The translations under genes were made by a program, and so were the position numbers. From contig JANQRM010000602.1 of NCBI GenBank assembly GCA_028284565.1, positions 1 to 9,177 of the forward strand: a DNA stretch of 9,177 nt, written 5' to 3'. How positions within the stretch are numbered: the stretch's first letter is position 1; each line of letters starts with the position of its first letter. The DNA comes from Anaerolineae bacterium. Its GTDB lineage: Bacteria; Chloroflexota; Anaerolineae; Aggregatilineales; Phototrophicaceae. A model generated the notes under the pieces. It was not told where the DNA came from, did no database searches, and saw only the letters and a list, made by a program, of their open reading frames with translations. Of the stretch, positions 1 to 8,737 are shown piece by piece.

Positions 1-1383
1 ACCGAGCAATTCATCAATCTCGGTCATATGCACACCCAGCCGTTGTCGCGCCAAGTTCTTCAAACCCAAGAAACGACTAATTGGGTCGAATACCCATTCA
101 GCCAGCATGGTATCAAACTCAATTGGCGCAACATCCACCCCATAGCGTTGCATTACTACCAAATCATAGGTCGCATTATGGGCAATTTTGGGGATATTAG
201 GATTAGTCAACGCAGGACGGATCGCCTCTATCACTGTATCGAGTGTCAATTGCACACCCTCATCATGCCCCACTGGAATGTAATAGCCTGTTTCGCCATC
301 GACAGCTAGCGCAATCCCGACTAAATCAGCAATCGAGGGGTCAATCCCTGTCGTCTCAACATCCCACGTGATGGCTTCAGCACCGTTCAACGTCTCGACC
401 AAATCCGCAAGAGCTTTCTCATCCTGAACAATCACCGTCGGCACAACCTCTTCGGGTTCTGGCGCGCCACTATCACTATCTGCCATCTTGAATAACGGTA
501 ACTGACCGATATCACCCAAACCTAAACGGTCTCTCAATTGACGAAATTCCAATTCGCCAAAGAGCTTATCGACCTTCATCACATCATAATCTTGCGCGAC
601 ACAAGCCTCCAAATCGAGTTGCACGTCCACATCAGTGAGAATAGTCGCCAGCTCATAGCTGAGATAAGCCATCTCGCGTCCCTCAGTAAGCTTTTTGTGA
701 TTCGCTCCTTTGATGTTATCGAGGTTGGCGTAAATATTGTCGAGCGACCCATATTCAAGCAGGAGTTTTGTCCCCCCTTTTTGACCAATCCCTTTCACAC
801 CCGGAATATTATCCGAGCTATCCCCCATGAGGGCTTTCAAATCAATCAATTGTAGCGGTTCGAGACCGTCATACTTTTCTCGGAACATTGCCTCATCATA
901 AGCAATATCGCTGGCATTCCTTTGTGGCAACTGCACCCGTACATTCGGCGAAAGCAACTGCAAGATGTCGCGGTCTCCTGTGATGATATGCACATCCACA
1001 TCTTGTTCAGAGGCTTGCTTGGCAATCGTCCCAATCACATCATCCGCTTCATAACCATCCAATGCCAAAATCGGGATATTAAATGCACTCACCACCTCTT
1101 CGATACGAGGCAGTTGTCGCGCAAGGTCATCCTCCATCTTCTCGCGCGTGCCTTTGTATTCATCAAACACTTTATCGCGTCCACTCAAGCCACGATCAAA
1201 AGTCAATGCCAGATAACGGGGTTTATCATTCTGCAATATATCAAGCAATATGCGGGTAAAGCCAAAGGTCGCATTCGTTGGCTCACCAGAGCGTGTAGAA
1301 AAACCTCGTGCGGGCAAGGCAAAATATTGGCGATAAGCAACCGCATGTCCATCAATCAAATACAATACAGGACGTTTCGACAT
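1..1383 (-). CDS. polA: DNA polymerase I, N-terminal part (runs off the left edge)
   Basis: This encodes the first 461 residues of DNA polymerase I, which removes RNA primers and fills gaps in replication and excision repair. The frame is open to base 1, so the polymerase domain lies outside the window. Residues 1-290 are the 5'-nuclease. Its metal-binding acids are visible: D11 in LIDGHAVAYR, D63, E112/D114/D115 in GYEADD, D137/D139 in TGDRD, and D188/D191 in MGDSSDN, followed by the helix-hairpin-helix GVKGIGQKGG. From about residue 335 a 3'-5' exonuclease begins. It keeps the ExoI DxE (D341, E343 in WDVETTG) and the ExoII N403/D407 in HNATYD, so proofreading is probably active, unlike Taq polymerase. 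The usual TFR and MPxxL signatures near residues 66-87 are altered (SGRD, MEDDL). The start ATG at 1381-1383 begins at the family's normal N-terminus and follows a purine-rich stretch (AAAGAAAGAC) as a weak ribosome site. Confidence 0.97.
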   Translation of the reverse strand, partial: MSKRPVLYLIDGHAVAYRQYFALPARGFSTRSGEPTNATFGFTRILLDILQNDKPRYLALTFDRGLSGRDKVFDEYKGTREKMEDDLARQLPRIEEVVSAFNIPILALDGYEADDVIGTIAKQASEQDVDVHIITGDRDILQLLSPNVRVQLPQRNASDIAYDEAMFREKYDGLEPLQLIDLKALMGDSSDNIPGVKGIGQKGGTKLLLEYGSLDNIYANLDNIKGANHKKLTEGREMAYLSYELATILTDVDVQLDLEACVAQDYDVMKVDKLFGELEFRQLRDRLGLGDIGQLPLFKMADSDSGAPEPEEVVPTVIVQDEKALADLVETLNGAEAITWDVETTGIDPSIADLVGIALAVDGETGYYIPVGHDEGVQLTLDTVIEAIRPALTNPNIPKIAHNATYDLVVMQRYGVDVAPIEFDTMLAEWVFDPISRFLGLKNLARQRLGVHMTEIDELLG

Positions 1384-1417
1384 CAAATTTGTCTTTCTTT
1401 TTCAAAAGAACATATGG

Positions 1418-1565: not shown

Positions 1566-4301
1566 CTAATATCTATTAAAAGCAATGAACTCTTGAATCT
1601 CCTCGTCAGACATCGCCCGCCCCGGCTTCAAGACCAAATAGCCATCTGCCCACAAAGAATCAGCTTGCAAACGGTCATCGATCGAACTAGCAACATCCGC
1701 AGACCGCACCATCAACTTGCGAATTAGCGCACTCGGCCTCTCTGATTCAGGTGCGTCCGCTTGCAAATAGAGATAATCCCCTTCACCATCGAGGACTTCA
1801 ATTTGCCAACCCAGCTGTTTCAACCAGTTCGCCAAATCCGCCAGAATTGCTGTGACCACGGCATCCGACAGTTGCTTATTAGCGTCCTGCACGATCCAGA
1901 CGAAGGTATAAGGTGCAAGCGGTCCCGGGTCAATAACGGACGAATCGTCGATAATTGCACCGGCTCCGGAAACAGAAGAATCAGCAATTAGTTCACCATC
2001 CTCTGGTACAGCAGACAACGCCTGCGATAAACGTTTCCCCTGCTGCCGAATCAGTCGCAATTGCTGTGTCCCACTGAACACCATCGACAAGGTGAATTCA
2101 CCGCCTGCCGTCCGCTTGGAGAACAGCATATAGTCTTTCCCACTTGCTGGTAGTGTCAAAAAGCGAATCCGAGATTGGTCATCTTTGGCATCCCAATCGC
2201 CTTCAATTGCCATTTCAATGTCTTGTATATCTTCATCAGGCATCGCCCCTGCTTGCGCCACAATCACATTATCTTGGGTCAACAGGGTCGCTTCTGCTGA
2301 GAGTTCCAATGAAACTTGTGTCAAAGTCAATGCCAATTGTGCGATGTACGCTTCTTCATCTGATTGAACGGGTTCGTCAATGATTTCTTCGCCATCGTCA
2401 ATCACGTCTTCGACGAGGGGTGCTTCATCCTCATATTCAGATACTGGCTCGACATCATCGTCTATCGCATCTTCAATTGCAGGAGCATCGTCCTCAAATT
2501 CAGCTTCCGGCTCAAATGCGTCCTCGATAAGATCATCAATAACTGGAGCGTCATCAAATTCAGATACTAGTTCGCCTTCGGCAACATCATCAATGACAGG
2601 AACATCATCCTCTATTTCCAGTTCGGGTTCATCGTTGATGTAGTCTTCCTCCGGTTCGTCAGCAACTTCCGTTTGATACGATTCCGCCTGCTCAACCGCT
2701 TCATCAACGACATCCTCAATTTCGTCCCACTCATCAGCAATAGGCTCTTCAATGACTTCATCCAAGTCATCAGCATAATCTGCTTCATCAACAACGGGGA
2801 CTTCGTCCGTTGCTTCATCTTCAAACGGAATAAAATCGGGTTCGTCGTCGTCACTAGATTCAGACGAATCCTTCTTGATGACAGGGGCAACATCCTCGTC
2901 CAGTTCCACTGCTTCTCGCGCAATATACGCATTCGCATCGGTTTCTTCTTCAACAGGAAGTGCATCATCATAATCATGCACATCTGTGTCGACATCGGAA
3001 TAGTCCTCATCGCCTTCCATCAGTTGCCACCCAATTTGCGATGGCGACACCCCTGCAATGGTGTCCGGTTCATCCTCTTCAATCACAGGTTCATCGACTA
3101 CTGAACTGGATACAGGGGTCTCATCCGATTCATAGTCGTCCTCAACAAGTAAATCCAACTCATCTTCCAACGGTTGTGAACGCACTTCGGGCGAGATACG
3201 GTCTGTCGTTAAGCTACCGGGGTCGCTTTCAAGCATATCCATATCCGAGGGTTGAGTGGTCGAAGAAGTATATTCTGAAACAGGCAACTCATCGGGCAAG
3301 AAGTCTGGTTCGCGGGTGTACTGTTCACTTTCCAGCACCCATGACGGAAGCGGTTCAATCCCCTGCTTATCAGGGGGCAATTGTTCCCGAATATTGTCAA
3401 ATAGTTCTTCTAACGAGAAGGCTTCAATGGGTGTGGTGTTATCTAACGCGGTTTCTAGGATGAGTGCCGCCGGAATAAAGCCATCATCTTGTGTTTCAAC
3501 CTCATCAAATTCAATCGCAGGCGAAGGTTCAGTATCCCCGTCATCGTCTGTCCACGAATCCAGCAAACCACTGACATCCGTATCCATCATACCGACAACC
3601 AAATCACGCACAGTCCCACTATCCTCAAAGTTCGGCATGGGAGGCTCTTCTGCGGCTAACTTCTGGAAGGTCTCATCTGCAATATTTTTCGTCGGAGGCG
3701 GGACATCTGTCACAAATTCGACTTTTTCACCATCCTCTGAGATGACAAATTCCATCGACTGCGATTCCTGAAAACTGTCATCTTCATCATCTAGTAGTAA
3801 CTCATCTTCTGCTTGTGAGTCGGCTTCCGCAACCGGCGTATCCGCGTCATCCGAAGCAATGACATAATTTGTCGTATCTTGATTGTCTTGAGCCGGCGAT
3901 TGCGCGGTATCGGGTAAATCCTCATCCATAGAGGGTGACGCTTCTTCAAGAAAAGGAATCAACTCCCTTGCCGTAATTGGAATATCCACCACCCCAGTAA
4001 GGTTGAGGTCATGAGCCACAGCATGCAGTTCTTCGTCCTCATCATCGGGTCCAATTAAGATGCCCATCTCAGGACGAATCGTTTGGAGGCGCAAGACCAA
4101 ATCCGGTCCGGGCATATCGGGCAAGTTAAAATCAACCAGCGCGACATCCTGCACACTTTGTTGCAAAAAGACAATCGCATTCTGTGCCGACGTAAACGAT
4201 GACACCAGATAATCACCCGTTTGCTCCAATGCCTGAATAATCGACACCGAAAATCCAACATCTTGTGTGATAATCAGCACCCGCTTGGGGACTAACGCCA
4301 T
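1566..4301 (-). CDS. Receiver-like / acidic linker / Roadblock-like / inactivated Y1-transposase-like fusion protein
   Basis: This is a 911-residue cytoplasmic protein without signal peptide or membrane segment. Residues 6-120 resemble a response-regulator receiver: the phosphoacceptor D57 is present (ALVDFNLPDMPG), but the acidic pair is reduced to D14, the switch Thr is G84 and the invariant Lys is I107. Residues 125-650 are acidic and of low complexity; I counted 108 Asp/Glu against 3 Lys/Arg in residues 401-650. Residues 650-762 resemble a Roadblock/LC7 domain (ATLLTQDNVIVAQAG, then LSMVF before an Arg/Gln-rich helix). Residues 796-911 follow the Y1 (IS200/IS605) transposase pattern: FVW, LGWQIEVL, then DYLYL where the HxH would be, SALIRKLMVRSA, LWADGYLV and a final EEIQEFIAF helix. 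The HUH histidines are Y843 and Y845, and the catalytic Tyr position is F905, so it should not cut DNA. An AGGA lies 10 bases before the ATG. The role is unknown; a non-catalytic signalling or scaffolding protein is my inference. Confidence 0.9.
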   Translation of the reverse strand: MALVPKRVLIITQDVGFSVSIIQALEQTGDYLVSSFTSAQNAIVFLQQSVQDVALVDFNLPDMPGPDLVLRLQTIRPEMGILIGPDDEDEELHAVAHDLNLTGVVDIPITARELIPFLEEASPSMDEDLPDTAQSPAQDNQDTTNYVIASDDADTPVAEADSQAEDELLLDDEDDSFQESQSMEFVISEDGEKVEFVTDVPPPTKNIADETFQKLAAEEPPMPNFEDSGTVRDLVVGMMDTDVSGLLDSWTDDDGDTEPSPAIEFDEVETQDDGFIPAALILETALDNTTPIEAFSLEELFDNIREQLPPDKQGIEPLPSWVLESEQYTREPDFLPDELPVSEYTSSTTQPSDMDMLESDPGSLTTDRISPEVRSQPLEDELDLLVEDDYESDETPVSSSVVDEPVIEEDEPDTIAGVSPSQIGWQLMEGDEDYSDVDTDVHDYDDALPVEEETDANAYIAREAVELDEDVAPVIKKDSSESSDDDEPDFIPFEDEATDEVPVVDEADYADDLDEVIEEPIADEWDEIEDVVDEAVEQAESYQTEVADEPEEDYINDEPELEIEDDVPVIDDVAEGELVSEFDDAPVIDDLIEDAFEPEAEFEDDAPAIEDAIDDDVEPVSEYEDEAPLVEDVIDDGEEIIDEPVQSDEEAYIAQLALTLTQVSLELSAEATLLTQDNVIVAQAGAMPDEDIQDIEMAIEGDWDAKDDQSRIRFLTLPASGKDYMLFSKRTAGGEFTLSMVFSGTQQLRLIRQQGKRLSQALSAVPEDGELIADSSVSGAGAIIDDSSVIDPGPLAPYTFVWIVQDANKQLSDAVVTAILADLANWLKQLGWQIEVLDGEGDYLYLQADAPESERPSALIRKLMVRSADVASSIDDRLQADSLWADGYLVLKPGRAMSDEEIQEFIAFNRY
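2382..2621 (-). repeat. Four tandem ~20-residue acidic repeats within the signalling protein
   Basis: Residues 561-640 hold four degenerate copies of a unit that begins E-[FIY]-[ED]-D, continues with AP or VP, a small hydrophobic pair and an acidic pair, and ends in an acidic tail. Visible copy cores are EDDVPVIDD, FDDAPVIDD, EDDAPAIED and EDEAPLVED, spaced 20-21 residues apart. The copies have diverged in protein and in DNA, so this is an old duplication. The regular spacing of hydrophobic pairs in an acidic background suggests a multivalent binding segment. Confidence 0.75.
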
Positions 4302-4353
4302 AAACTCACGATCCTATCTTGCTGAGTCAACAGGCAACACCCATTGCCCATAA

Positions 4354-4463
4354 ATCGAAACCAAACATAACCATAGCTCTATTGTACCCAGATGCGAAAA
4401 GAATAAAAACAAGCGAGTATAAAAAGCGTCTAAAAACGCCCTTAAACAACCATCGAAACCAAA
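4354..4463. repeat. Perfect 12-bp direct repeat in the divergent intergenic region
   Basis: ATCGAAACCAAA occurs at 4354-4365 and again at 4452-4463, in the same orientation and 98 bases apart. The 234-base region between two divergent genes (4302-4535) contains both. The first copy lies between the minus-strand gene's -10-like hexamer and its ATG. The second lies just upstream of the plus-strand gene's -10-like hexamer. This placement fits a shared regulator site, but no regulator is identified. The rest of the region is A-rich, and I see no other structure in it beyond the promoter hexamers. Confidence 0.5.
4381..4386 (-). promoter_or_regulatory. Possible -10 hexamer for the signalling-protein gene
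   Basis: The minus strand reads TACAAT here, the same -10 hexamer used by the better promoters in front of the lipoprotein gene and miaB. The spacing to the ATG is about 79 bases. No good -35 is found at 16-18 bases (TTTTTA at 17), so the call rests on the -10 alone. Confidence 0.3.
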
Positions 4464-4479
4464 AAGCCTTAATTTCGTC

Positions 4480-4485
4480 TACAAT
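4480..4485 (+). promoter_or_regulatory. Possible -10 hexamer for the plus-strand unknown gene
   Basis: TACAAT lies 50 bases upstream of the ATG at 4536. The -35 region is A-rich and does not match the consensus. It overlaps one copy of the 12-bp direct repeat, which would suit activator-dependent transcription if the repeat is functional. Confidence 0.3.
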
Positions 4486-4535
4486 TATGAAGCATATTTA
4501 CAAAAGTCACACAATGTATCATTCAGGATCGAACC

Positions 4536-5165
4536 ATGACAAAGCAACTAGAGCAAATCGCTGAACAGGTCAAATACCACCAACTCGATGTACTCGTCGG
4601 ACAATCTGTTCAAGTCGACAGTCTCGAAACATTAGTGTCCAATGTACAAGACTTGCTGGCAACCCAGTTAAATAATCATATTCCCTATATTGGACGCTGG
4701 AATACGAACCCCAACATAGACAACCCACCAAATGACACGGAGTATGTTTTCGCCAGCATAGGAAATTTTGATATGAAATTCAATTGGTCGAATCAAACAG
4801 CAGACTATCCCTTTCAATCTGGGATGGCTTTCCTTGAAGAGATGGAAATCGACTTACTCATGGAATTACATGGAAATCTAATTGATGATTTAAGTCAGCA
4901 AGTATCAGAAGGCAAGATGTACTTATTGTTGTTATTCGCTATCGACAATAAACATGAACCGTTCGCGGACTTCCGAGAGAAAATTAGACACAAAGACAGC
5001 GAGGCAATCAAGACAGCTGAGGCGGGTTTTCCAGCAAGCTATTTTCCGGTCAATTGCCAGATAATTGCCTCTGCAGTGACCAATGCACCCGCACTATGGA
5101 TTCGTTATAGTGTGTTATGGATGTACACGTATCTATACAACTATCGGCAACTTACTCTGCCGTAA
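4536..5165 (+). CDS. Hypothetical protein of 209 residues
   Basis: I do not recognise this protein. It is the only plus-strand gene in the window, with AGGAT about 9 bases before its ATG and protein-like codon use throughout, and no open frame opposes it on the minus strand. It has no signal peptide. The N-terminal 45 residues look helical and polar (KQLEQIAEQVKYHQ). The middle holds a W/N-rich stretch (GRWNTNPNIDNPPND) and a leucine-rich helix with MEIDLLMELHGNLIDDLSQQ. The C-terminus is aromatic (LWMYTYLYNYR) but too short and polar to be a confident membrane helix. Its last 14 bases overlap the 3' end of the convergent lipoprotein gene. It reads like an accessory cytoplasmic protein; it may be a lineage-restricted ORF. 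Confidence 0.65.
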   Translation: MTKQLEQIAEQVKYHQLDVLVGQSVQVDSLETLVSNVQDLLATQLNNHIPYIGRWNTNPNIDNPPNDTEYVFASIGNFDMKFNWSNQTADYPFQSGMAFLEEMEIDLLMELHGNLIDDLSQQVSEGKMYLLLLFAIDNKHEPFADFREKIRHKDSEAIKTAEAGFPASYFPVNCQIIASAVTNAPALWIRYSVLWMYTYLYNYRQLTLP

Positions 5166-6303
5166 CTGTCACACGCAGAATTGCAGAATTATTCACTTCG
5201 CTCGATTCGCTGACTTCGTTATCAGAGTCCGCTTTCACTTCGAGGATAAACTCGCCAGCAGTGTCAAAGGTCAAATCAACAGACAAGATGAAGCTCGAAC
5301 CATCCGCCAAGTCAGAAATCCGCGCCACTTCAATCTCTTCATTGCCATCAAAATCCACGATTGTCAAAAATTCACCACTATCACCCAAGCCGAGATTGCT
5401 AATGGTAATCGAATACGACGAGGTGACATCACTATCACCACTCGCTATCACCAAATCCTCTGCACCAGAGAAGTCCGTTACAATCAAATCAGGAGGTCGT
5501 GGGACGGGCGTGTTGGATGGAACAGGAGTATTCGTAATTTGTGGTGTATTCGTCGGCGTGCTGGTGGGGGGAGTCGGTGGAGTCGCCGTGACAGGCGGTT
5601 GAGCCATAGGAACGTTCAAGCAATTACCATATTGCGTCGTGAAATCCGCACTCACCCAGCCTTCTTGCCCACCCACATTCAGCTTCCACCATGTATTATT
5701 CCCCAAACGCCCGATAATCGGAGCCAGCGTCCCTGTGGATAGCACCGTAATCACGTCAAAGTCGGTACTCGGTCCCTGACGGAAATTCAAACCCGTATTC
5801 GTCAATGCCCGACACACCCCATCATTCGGAATCTGTGGCACATTCACGTTCCCAATGGGTGTCGCTGTCACCTGTGCTTGACTACCACGTATGGTCACTT
5901 GAATATCTGTGGGGTCACTCACGACTGCACCGCGATATGCCAAGACTCGCATCGTAATTGTCCCTGCCGCGCGTGGCGTATAATCCAAAATCGCGCTCAT
6001 TGTCGTATCACCATTCAACTGCTCAGATGATACAGTTTTCACAATCTGATTATTGACCCACAATTGCATCCTCGTGACCCCGACGCTATCCGTTGCATTG
6101 GCACTGACCAATATTTCTTCACCCACCACGAACTCGTCGCCAGCAACAGGCGATAAGACACTCACCAGTGGTTTTTCGGTCTGGAAATCCGTGGTTGGCG
6201 TTGGCGTGATAAGCGGTTCAGCCGTTGGTGAATTGTTGCTCAAGTTACACGCAGTCAGCAGGCTCAAGCACATCAACACAAATAGAGTCACACGGGCGAT
6301 CAT
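5152..6303 (-). CDS. Secreted lipoprotein with Ig-like, SH3b and CARDB-type domains
   Basis: This is a 383-residue exported lipoprotein, likely anchored to the cell surface. Residues 1-19 are a lipoprotein signal peptide with lipobox LLTAC, so C19 would be the acylated residue. A short Thr/Pro-rich tether follows. Residues 45-138 look like a bacterial Ig-like domain (VSVLSPVAGDEFVVGEEILV, with a strand LWVNNQIV). Residues 163-228 form an SH3b domain (LNFRQGPSTDFDVITVL, WWKLNVGGQEGWVSADF) bracketed by C164 and C228, which could form a disulfide. Residues 235-271 are a Pro/Thr linker built from NTPVP-like units. Residues 271-380 match a CARDB-type beta-sandwich (DLIVTDF ending in SSEVNNSAILRVTV). 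SH3b domains commonly bind cell-wall peptides; the ligand here is unknown. AAGGAT lies 5 bases before the ATG, supporting this start. It ends inside the convergent unknown gene, with no separate terminator. Confidence 0.9.
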   Translation of the reverse strand: MIARVTLFVLMCLSLLTACNLSNNSPTAEPLITPTPTTDFQTEKPLVSVLSPVAGDEFVVGEEILVSANATDSVGVTRMQLWVNNQIVKTVSSEQLNGDTTMSAILDYTPRAAGTITMRVLAYRGAVVSDPTDIQVTIRGSQAQVTATPIGNVNVPQIPNDGVCRALTNTGLNFRQGPSTDFDVITVLSTGTLAPIIGRLGNNTWWKLNVGGQEGWVSADFTTQYGNCLNVPMAQPPVTATPPTPPTSTPTNTPQITNTPVPSNTPVPRPPDLIVTDFSGAEDLVIASGDSDVTSSYSITISNLGLGDSGEFLTIVDFDGNEEIEVARISDLADGSSFILSVDLTFDTAGEFILEVKADSDNEVSESSEVNNSAILRVTVTAE

Positions 6304-6555: not shown

Positions 6556-7194
6556 TTAACCAATCGGCTCTTTCCAGATCGTGAAGCGACACATATCGTC
6601 GCCCACCGCCATACACGAGGTTTCATCAACCTTGAACTCTTGCCCACCCGATACCCACCGCAGACCTTCTTGTAGCAAACCTGTCGCCACAAAACAGCAA
6701 GGCTTCTCCGCTTTCCGTTCCCAGCAGACTGGGCTACGCTCAATTGTGTAGATAATCTTGTCCGTGCCTTCTTCATACACATGCGAAATCTGGTCAGAAA
6801 ATTGCATAAAGATGTTTGCCATGGCTGGCACACCGATTTTCAATTTCGCATTCAAAGGCAACACCTTAAACGCAAGGTCACCCACACCCGCCAGCGCACC
6901 AAATGCCCGCAAGCCACGCGCAAACGTCGCCCGACCTGCCCGCAATGCCAGCCCACGTCCACCGCGCGGACCGTACATTTCTTCCAAAGCCATGTTGAGT
7001 GCCGTGTAATCGGCAAAATCGAATTCCTTTTCGAGGTTATCTGGCGGATAATTGTTGATATATTCCGACAAGCCCGCCAAGTTCAAAATCGCGTTCAGAC
7101 CGTTTTTCCCCATCACCTCTTCCATCGCTTCAATCGTGATGAGTGCAAATTTATTCGGGTAGTAGTAGCCCGCCTTTTTTCTTTCAGGTGGCAT
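6556..7194 (-). CDS. V4R (4-vinyl reductase-like) domain protein
   Basis: This is a 212-residue soluble protein whose C-terminal half matches the V4R domain, a small-molecule-sensing fold shared with hydrocarbon-binding proteins and the BchJ family. The signature is the cysteine pattern: C157, then CCF (C166, C167), then ETSC (C194) followed by GDDMC (C202), with the typical GxxxEGLRWVSGG helix-turn between. Cysteines at these positions often bind metal or ligand in the family. Residues 10-60 (YYPNKFALITIEAMEEVMG) resemble the N-terminal helical region of stand-alone V4R proteins. The Gly/Arg-rich segment 77-100 (GPRGGRGLALRAGRATF) is a distinctive basic stretch. A strong GGAGG (7203-7207) lies 8 bases before the ATG. 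It is probably expressed alone, from its own promoter to its own terminator. The ligand is unknown; an actual vinyl-reductase activity is not supported. Confidence 0.85.
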   Translation of the reverse strand: MPPERKKAGYYYPNKFALITIEAMEEVMGKNGLNAILNLAGLSEYINNYPPDNLEKEFDFADYTALNMALEEMYGPRGGRGLALRAGRATFARGLRAFGALAGVGDLAFKVLPLNAKLKIGVPAMANIFMQFSDQISHVYEEGTDKIIYTIERSPVCWERKAEKPCCFVATGLLQEGLRWVSGGQEFKVDETSCMAVGDDMCRFTIWKEPIG

Positions 7195-7360: not shown

Positions 7361-8737
7361 CTAGTTCGCCAAAACAATCAAGGGATCGTGTTGCGTTTGG
7401 GTCGCAGGCAAGCGTCCTTGCATACTCCACGGACCTGTCCACGTCACTTCGACATCAACCAATTGTCCCTTCAAATCCCCTTTTGCCTCAAAGAAGATCA
7501 GCTTATTCTGTGGAGTCCGTCCGCGCCATTTACCCTTATGCAAATCCTCTACTAGCACCTCGACATTCTGCCCCAAATACGGCTGATTAATCTCCGCGAC
7601 AACCCGCTTCTGCACATCTTCTAACAGGCGGAAGCGACGCATCTTTTCCTCTTCCGGAACATCGTCGTCCATTTTACGGTCACTCACCGTCTGCGGACGC
7701 GGACTGTAACGTGCCAGATGAGCCTTATCAAGTTTCAATTCGTCAAGGATGTGATAAGTATCCATGAATTGCGCATCAGTCTCACCGGGGAAGCCTACGA
7801 TAATATCCGTATGTATCGCCACGTTAGGGATAATATCTCGAATTTGATGCACCAACTGACGATACTGCTCCGCTGTATACCCGCGACGCATATTTTCTAG
7901 CACGAGGTCATTCCCCGCTTGAATCGGCACTTCGATATGAGGCATGACATGAGGCAATTCAGCCACGGTTTCCAGCAACTTATCCGTCATCCAATTCGGA
8001 TGGCTAGTCAAGAAGCGGATACGCTCAAATCCAACTTCCTCAGCCGTGTCATCCACAATCCGCAACAAATCTGCCAAATCAGGACCATCAGAAATATCCT
8101 TGCCATAACGATCCACAATCTGACCGAGCAAGGTGACTTCTTTTACGCCTTGTTGCGCCAGACTACGAACATGCGCCACAATCTCGCCTACTGGACGACT
8201 CCGCTCCACACCTCGACGGAAGGGAATAATGCAAAACGTACACGCATGAGAACAGCCATATACCACAGGCACATGCGCCGTGACCAAATTGCCACGTTCA
8301 TGCAACGGCAAGATTAATTCACCATCTTGTAATGCATCCCGTTGTTGACGTGCTTCGGCTTCTAAATCAAGAGCTTCTGCTTCATCCACCCGTTCAGACA
8401 AAAATTCAACCATCGACTCCGGCTGTGACGGTGGCATAAACACATCGACAAAGGGAAGTTTCTTTCGCATCCACAACGGGTCTTTGACACCGACCATACA
8501 CCCCATGACACCAATCACCATGTCGGGCTGGTCTTTCTTCATCGCATTCAACAGATGCAGACGATTCAAGCCACGGTCTTCCGCACTCTGACGCACCACA
8601 CAGGTATTCACCACCTGAATTTCTGCGTCTTCTGGGTTCGTCGCCGCTTGATGTCCCATCTTTTCCAATTCAGATGCCAACAATTGCGAATCCGCCGTGT
8701 TCATCTGGCATCCAAATGTCCAAATATGATAGTGCAT
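7361..8737 (-). CDS. miaB: tRNA-2-methylthio-N6-dimethylallyladenosine synthase (MiaB)
   Basis: A 458-residue radical-SAM methylthiotransferase. MiaB adds a methylthio group to i6A at position 37 of tRNAs that read codons beginning with U. The N-terminal UPF0004 domain (residues 1-115) supplies three Cys for the auxiliary [4Fe-4S] cluster: C10 (TFGCQMN), C46 (NTCVVR) and C80 (MGCM). The radical-SAM cluster motif is C162-x3-C166-x2-C169 in YGCSHACTFC. Further family motifs are HIEVPIQAGND, MRRGYT, TDIIVGFPGET and ARYSPRPQT. Residues 385-443 form the C-terminal TRAM domain, which binds tRNA. The usual GQNVxxYG is GQIVDRYG (residues 205-212). Length is normal for the family. The ATG at 8735-8737 is fixed by an in-frame TAG upstream; the nearest AAGGA is unusually far, about 16 bases, so initiation may be weak. 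A related methylthiotransferase such as MtaB or RimO fits less well. Confidence 0.93.
   Translation of the reverse strand: MHYHIWTFGCQMNTADSQLLASELEKMGHQAATNPEDAEIQVVNTCVVRQSAEDRGLNRLHLLNAMKKDQPDMVIGVMGCMVGVKDPLWMRKKLPFVDVFMPPSQPESMVEFLSERVDEAEALDLEAEARQQRDALQDGELILPLHERGNLVTAHVPVVYGCSHACTFCIIPFRRGVERSRPVGEIVAHVRSLAQQGVKEVTLLGQIVDRYGKDISDGPDLADLLRIVDDTAEEVGFERIRFLTSHPNWMTDKLLETVAELPHVMPHIEVPIQAGNDLVLENMRRGYTAEQYRQLVHQIRDIIPNVAIHTDIIVGFPGETDAQFMDTYHILDELKLDKAHLARYSPRPQTVSDRKMDDDVPEEEKMRRFRLLEDVQKRVVAEINQPYLGQNVEVLVEDLHKGKWRGRTPQNKLIFFEAKGDLKGQLVDVEVTWTGPWSMQGRLPATQTQHDPLIVLAN

Follow-up and report, generated by a model that had tools for sequence, protein, structure and literature searches.

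The locus studied here raises the question of why a signalling-type protein ends in a transposase domain that has lost its nuclease residues, and of what such a domain may still do there. We analyzed a stretch of 9,177 nucleotides from an Anaerolineae bacterium (the window), whose features are collected in Table 1.

Table 1. Features of the window, with coordinates from its first nucleotide
Feature	Positions	Strand	Basis or remark
polA, 5' part, cut by the window edge	1..1386	-	Pfam 5_3_exonuc_N, 5_3_exonuc, DNA_pol_A_exo1; downstream neighbour
911-aa receiver - acidic linker - Roadblock-like - inactive Y1 protein	1566..4301	-	
Inactive Y1 transposase (HUH) domain, residues 796-911	1566..1916	-	
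F905 at the catalytic tyrosine position	1587..1589	-	alignment, family counts
Y843-L844-Y845 at the HUH motif position	1767..1775	-	alignment, family counts
Roadblock/LC7-like domain, residues 654-767	2001..2342	-	
Acidic linker, long, residues 116-653	2343..3956	-	
Receiver domain, residues 8-115	3957..4280	-	Pfam PF00072; residue counts
209-aa ORF between the family gene and the SH3/CARDB gene	4536..5165	+	no significant Pfam match
SH3_3/CARDB/Big_7 protein, lipoprotein-like start by eye	5152..6303	-	upstream neighbour, many loci
V4R-domain protein	6556..7194	-	recurring neighbour
MiaB-like protein (UPF0004, Radical SAM, TRAM)	7361..8737	-	recurring neighbour

Domain layout and the lost transposase site

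We observed that the Y1_Tnp profile (PF01797) matched the window protein with 27.9 bits (cut-off 23) and 56 of 60 homologues at E 0.01 or better. TnpA was named for this domain by searches with profile, sequence and fold alike, in agreement with the original prediction, which had seen IS200/IS605 TnpA in residues 796-911. The domain has the fold of these transposases (PDB 2f4f, 2ec2, 2a6m, 2xm3) and shares with them the order of elements, the length, and the W and Y positions 802, 884 and 888. Unlike them, the family domains lack the HUH motif and mostly the catalytic tyrosine, are mostly acidic, are fused to receiver and Roadblock-like domains, and usually occur in one copy. In the window protein the H-u-H motif of an active transposase was absent, with Y843 and Y845 in place of the histidines, and F905 stood where the last helix should carry the catalytic tyrosine. 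Both replacements had been predicted, and the alignment and the family counts bear them out.

H-x-H was seen in none of the 164 family domains resolved at both histidine positions (from 166 distinct domains), a sample that leans towards dead domains because dead domains were used as the search seeds; the dead-seeded profile also recovered short ORFs with H-x-H. The commonest states at positions 843, 845 and 905 were YYF (89 domains) and FYF (31). In the main clade these positions were aromatic in 95, 94 and 99% of domains (n = 145, 145 and 146), and 137 of 146 carried F at 905. Four further residues of this clade, P893, G894, R895 and E901, are new and near-invariant; they sit between the final strand and the final helix. 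The third metal ligand position (Tyr+4; Q, or N in TnpAREP) holds N909 in the window, E, Q and A being commoner in homologues.

As controls we took 20 loci with short Y1 ORFs from related genomes, of which 19 gave aligned rows (L080 gave none). H-x-H was present in 17 of the 19, one had H-x-R and one (L075) was a dead stand-alone copy. The catalytic tyrosine was found in all 13 controls resolved at this position; six were unresolved there.

Some family members keep part of the old site. P0114-P0121 and L054 form a clade of receiver-Y1 proteins, mostly of 453-468 aa, in which seven proteins retain the second histidine and the tyrosine (Y-H-Y). Judged by their residues, these look like an apparent intermediate of the catalytic loss. 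A single histidine is retained in a few other family domains, and tyrosine in some relatives.

The junction of the Y1 domain to a receiver and a Roadblock-like domain, also part of the original prediction, was confirmed by a PF00072 match and by the Roadblock fold. PF00072 scored 33.4 bits in the window protein (cut-off 30.2) and matched 47 of 60 homologues at E 0.01 (one row being a C-terminal piece). The phosphoacceptor D57 is present, as it is in 62 of 69 rows, a count that depends on the alignment. The first acid of the acid pair and the conserved lysine are missing, so that the window receiver does not hold the full set of aspartate, acid pair and lysine; across the rows, with the same dependence on the alignment, lysine was seen in 15 of 69 and the acid-pair positions were variable. 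From these residues, we read the receiver as degenerate, with its aspartate retained. The middle domain has a Roadblock/LC7 fold, the closest chains being MglB and EGO/Ragulator. Since the Robl_LC7 profile of Pfam matched none of 60 and 15 members at E 0.01, this assignment is by fold only.

The linker carries blocks common to the homologues (EEPPMP..E..GTV.DL, ILE.ALD.STP, PLPSW and REPDFLPE in the consensus of 60 rows), with traces in the alignment of L046, L047 and L050. The first, third and fourth of these resemble docking motifs.

Distribution, selection and descent

A protein search with residues 650-911 returned 97 rows including the window's own, and 94 of the other 96 were 34-50% identical over 88-100% of the query. 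All rows with an organism name were labelled Anaerolineae, Aggregatilineales, Phototrophicaceae or Chloroflexota; one (P0031) was additionally labelled Chitinophagaceae by one source. Some of these proteins are called RayT or transposase by annotation pipelines and in databases, which misleads annotation. In a genome scan, the window protein alone as query found nothing; the alignment as query found 21 loci, all titled Chloroflexota and 12 of them 'Anaerolineae bacterium'.

We then have three samples of genomes. In the order to which G001 belongs (the L001 genome, titled Aggregatilineales), a family match was present in 86 of 101 genomes, in 84 of these in an ORF of at least 300 aa; among the matches listed, only G275 had two such ORFs. 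In the class sample, close profile matches were found in 63 of 396 genomes, short TnpA-like ORFs included. In the phylum sample, wider profile matches occurred in 90 of 400 genomes, and at least 29 genomes, all in the class, had a match in an ORF of at least 430 aa at E 1.1e-20 or better; among the remaining phylum matches listed, two weaker ones lay in ORFs above 430 aa (G601, with an internal stop, and G610). The family is usually a single gene per genome, in Anaerolineae of the phylum Chloroflexota.

Eight distant members were examined for the architecture. Pfam placed Y1_Tnp above cut-off in six, below it in L050 and absent in L056, and the receiver above cut-off in five and weaker in three. 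Where they aligned (seven of the eight), a Roadblock-like block or the family alignment lay between receiver and Y1. In a model of L054 (mean pLDDT 73.9), receiver, Roadblock-like and Y1 elements follow one another as in the window protein; the matches listed in a fold search with the distant-member model were receiver chains.

The inactive state is common to an order and extends beyond it, and the domain is under purifying selection. Its dN/dS was 0.028-0.226 in 15 close pairs, some with high dS. In 11 of 14 computable pairs it was lower than that of the preceding 145-residue stretch, which holds the Roadblock region, and in three it was higher. In a tree of 62 domains, a starred branch (100/99) separated 18 of the 19 control ORFs (17 with H-x-H, one with H-x-R) from all 44 dead domains, stand-alone copies among them; the tree was built on 118 columns, too few to settle much of the remainder, and 36 of its 58 inner branches were not starred. 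Conserved reuse of a dead domain, as originally predicted, is upheld by this breadth and selection, and the finding of no H-x-H homologue among the resolved domains argues against the recent decay that had been named as its alternative.

No clear insertion-sequence hallmark was seen at the family gene of the window. By eye, no tnpB was present among the window ORFs; three inverted repeats (arms of 8-13 nt) were seen at 1459-1543 and none at 4290-4560. A search of the window against Rfam gave no match. In phage and plasmid records, tblastn with the Y1 domain as query found nothing at E 1e-5, a result that says little because ordinary TnpAs, surely present there, were not reached either.

RAYTs are described as HuH/Y proteins tied to REP sequences (PMC6006769, PMC8266576). 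Like TnpAREP/RAYT, the present proteins are chromosomal, housekeeping-like, domesticated Y1 proteins; unlike them, they are without H-x-H and mostly without the tyrosine. A dead domain that is joined to signalling domains and preserved by selection in the majority of an order's sampled genomes represents a second route of domestication. The tree of a large Y1 family survey kept only sequences with HuH and Y motifs (PMC6006769), and would therefore leave a dead lineage out. The literature accessible in part held no description of the receiver - Roadblock-like - Y1 architecture.

In Myxococcus polarity, a Roadblock/LC7 protein (MglB) and a response regulator (RomR) likewise bring the Roadblock fold and a receiver together in signalling. 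MglB and RomR are separate proteins, whereas here both domains are in one chain, and we know of no Y1 domain in either of them. A further comparison is with the polyomavirus T antigen and papillomavirus E1 origin-binding domains, HUH-type folds that likewise work without catalysis; these bind DNA and are part of viral helicases.

Stand-alone Y1 proteins of 144-219 aa without H-x-H were also observed (L090-L096; e.g. L092:1615-2199, minus strand). They are related to the L057-type domain, Y1_Tnp was the sole Pfam domain in the five scanned, and four copies were seen in genome G387.

Gene neighbourhood and the polA link

The polA part in the window encodes the 5'-3' exonuclease domains and the start of the 3'-5' exonuclease domain; three full-length downstream neighbours at other loci had both exonuclease domains and the polymerase domain. 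After removal of repeats of the same place, and with the window excluded, there were 61 distinct family genes, 59 of them at informative loci (1.4 kb or more downstream, or polA seen). At 41 of these 59, polA followed on the same strand no more than 1 kb downstream, with gaps of -4 to 757 bases; at L008, where the family gene was not in the ORF set, the polA ORF follows its match. The link is found not only in the window and within the order but also in L057-L060, a diverged group with only 18-23% identity to the window in the Y1 domain. The 18 loci without it include the L050-L053 group, L048, L054 and L056, as well as closer members such as L003, L010, L012, L016 and L017. At L049 and L104, polA lies 2.5-2.9 kb downstream.

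A link to DNA polymerase I is suggested from gene order alone, and the neighbour points to a role in DNA metabolism without demonstrating it. The linkage makes such a function directly testable. Neither the polA neighbour nor the degenerate receiver had been part of the original prediction.

Upstream, genes for the SH3/CARDB, V4R and MiaB-like proteins are found again at some of the loci. With 76-81% identity to its counterparts at other loci, the V4R protein ranks above most neighbours.

Possible roles of the inactive domain

We favour, with a probability of roughly 55%, the reading that the Y1 domain, once captured, was stripped of its nuclease residues and retained in a signalling-type scaffold as a module without enzymatic activity. 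The capture of the IS200/IS605-type domain would have happened early in Anaerolineae, at the C-terminus of a receiver-linker-Roadblock protein, with retention following the loss of the nuclease residues. As the cutting residues are long lost and the domain is yet kept by selection, its role is probably that of a non-cutting contact module, and we infer that the whole protein is a scaffold without catalysis. The receiver and the Roadblock-like domain may receive signals or partners, the conserved short motifs of the acidic linker could dock further ones, and the old metal and tyrosine site would now be a cluster of conserved aromatic residues (Y/F, Y, F). TnpA functions as a dimer (PMC6006769). 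The dead domain may dimerise in the same way and present a protein-binding surface; considering the TnpA dimers, the acidic surface and the aromatic site, dimerisation or protein contact appears to be its likeliest role.

The main rival, which we consider possible but doubtful, is that the dead domain still binds single-stranded DNA or hairpins without cutting and tethers the protein to DNA, e.g. at replication forks. This would account for the polA neighbour, since that linkage also fits a nucleic-acid role. The Y132F mutant of ISDra2 TnpA was crystallised with DNA (entry title of 2xo6), so that loss of the tyrosine alone need not abolish binding.

The charge of the domain bears on this rival in both directions. 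The median net charge was +6 in the H-x-H controls (n = 10, the best-covered of 17 rows, seven being omitted for gaps), -2 in L054/L057-type rows (n = 13) and -7 in the other family rows (n = 142), the window lineage. An arginine follows the first strand in all 16 resolved controls; at this position about 1% of the main set had K or R, and proline was commonest (97 of 144). Residue 869 was R or H in 15 of 17 controls and E or D in 59% of the main set. With several basic residues of TnpA lost, DNA binding in the window lineage becomes less likely; nucleic-acid binding was one of the three roles originally proposed, beside those of a sensor and of dimerisation. On the other side, the main set retains K or R at 805 (64%) and 864 (66%) and has gained arginine at 866 (73%) and 895 (97%). 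All 13 of the less acidic L054/L057-type rows have K or R at 864, and in L054 and L058-L060 the domain is slightly basic (+2). On balance, these residues make TnpA-like DNA binding appear disfavoured in the window lineage, and less so in the diverged lineages.

It is unlikely that the old metal and tyrosine site has turned into a conserved aromatic pocket which recognises a ligand or peptide, and that the pseudo-receiver, Roadblock-like and pseudo-transposase parts form a catalysis-free adaptor coupling DNA polymerase I or repair to Anaerolineae signalling.

We regard as quite unlikely that the Roadblock-like domain serves an MglA-like small GTPase as its GAP or scaffold, with the Y1 domain only stabilising the dimer. 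The nearest folds (MglB, EGO/Ragulator) point that way, as does the regulation of small GTPases by Roadblock proteins described in PMC4316618 and PMC9481161. However, PF00025 was absent in five carrier genomes (G267, G784, G793, G794 and G803), though this profile may miss some GTPases. In at least ten other carriers PF00025 matched only an ORF of about 420-540 aa, a length that does not suit an MglA, and among the minority of neighbours that were domain-scanned no GTPase gene turned up next to the family gene. Across the order, PF00025 matched 96 of 101 genomes, which makes the co-occurrence test too unspecific to use.

Catalysis by another route, through tyrosine, glutamate or the new PGR...E residues, is very improbable: these four residues are new and near-invariant, but both histidines and mostly the tyrosine are lost, the replacements are aromatic and the position of the third metal ligand varies among homologues. 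A decaying transposase that was recently inserted or fused by read-through, for which the missing catalytic residues and the RayT or transposase annotations might speak, has next to no probability left, being refuted by the conservation found, namely the same architecture, mostly in single copy, with a common gene order across the order and beyond, and the low dN/dS.
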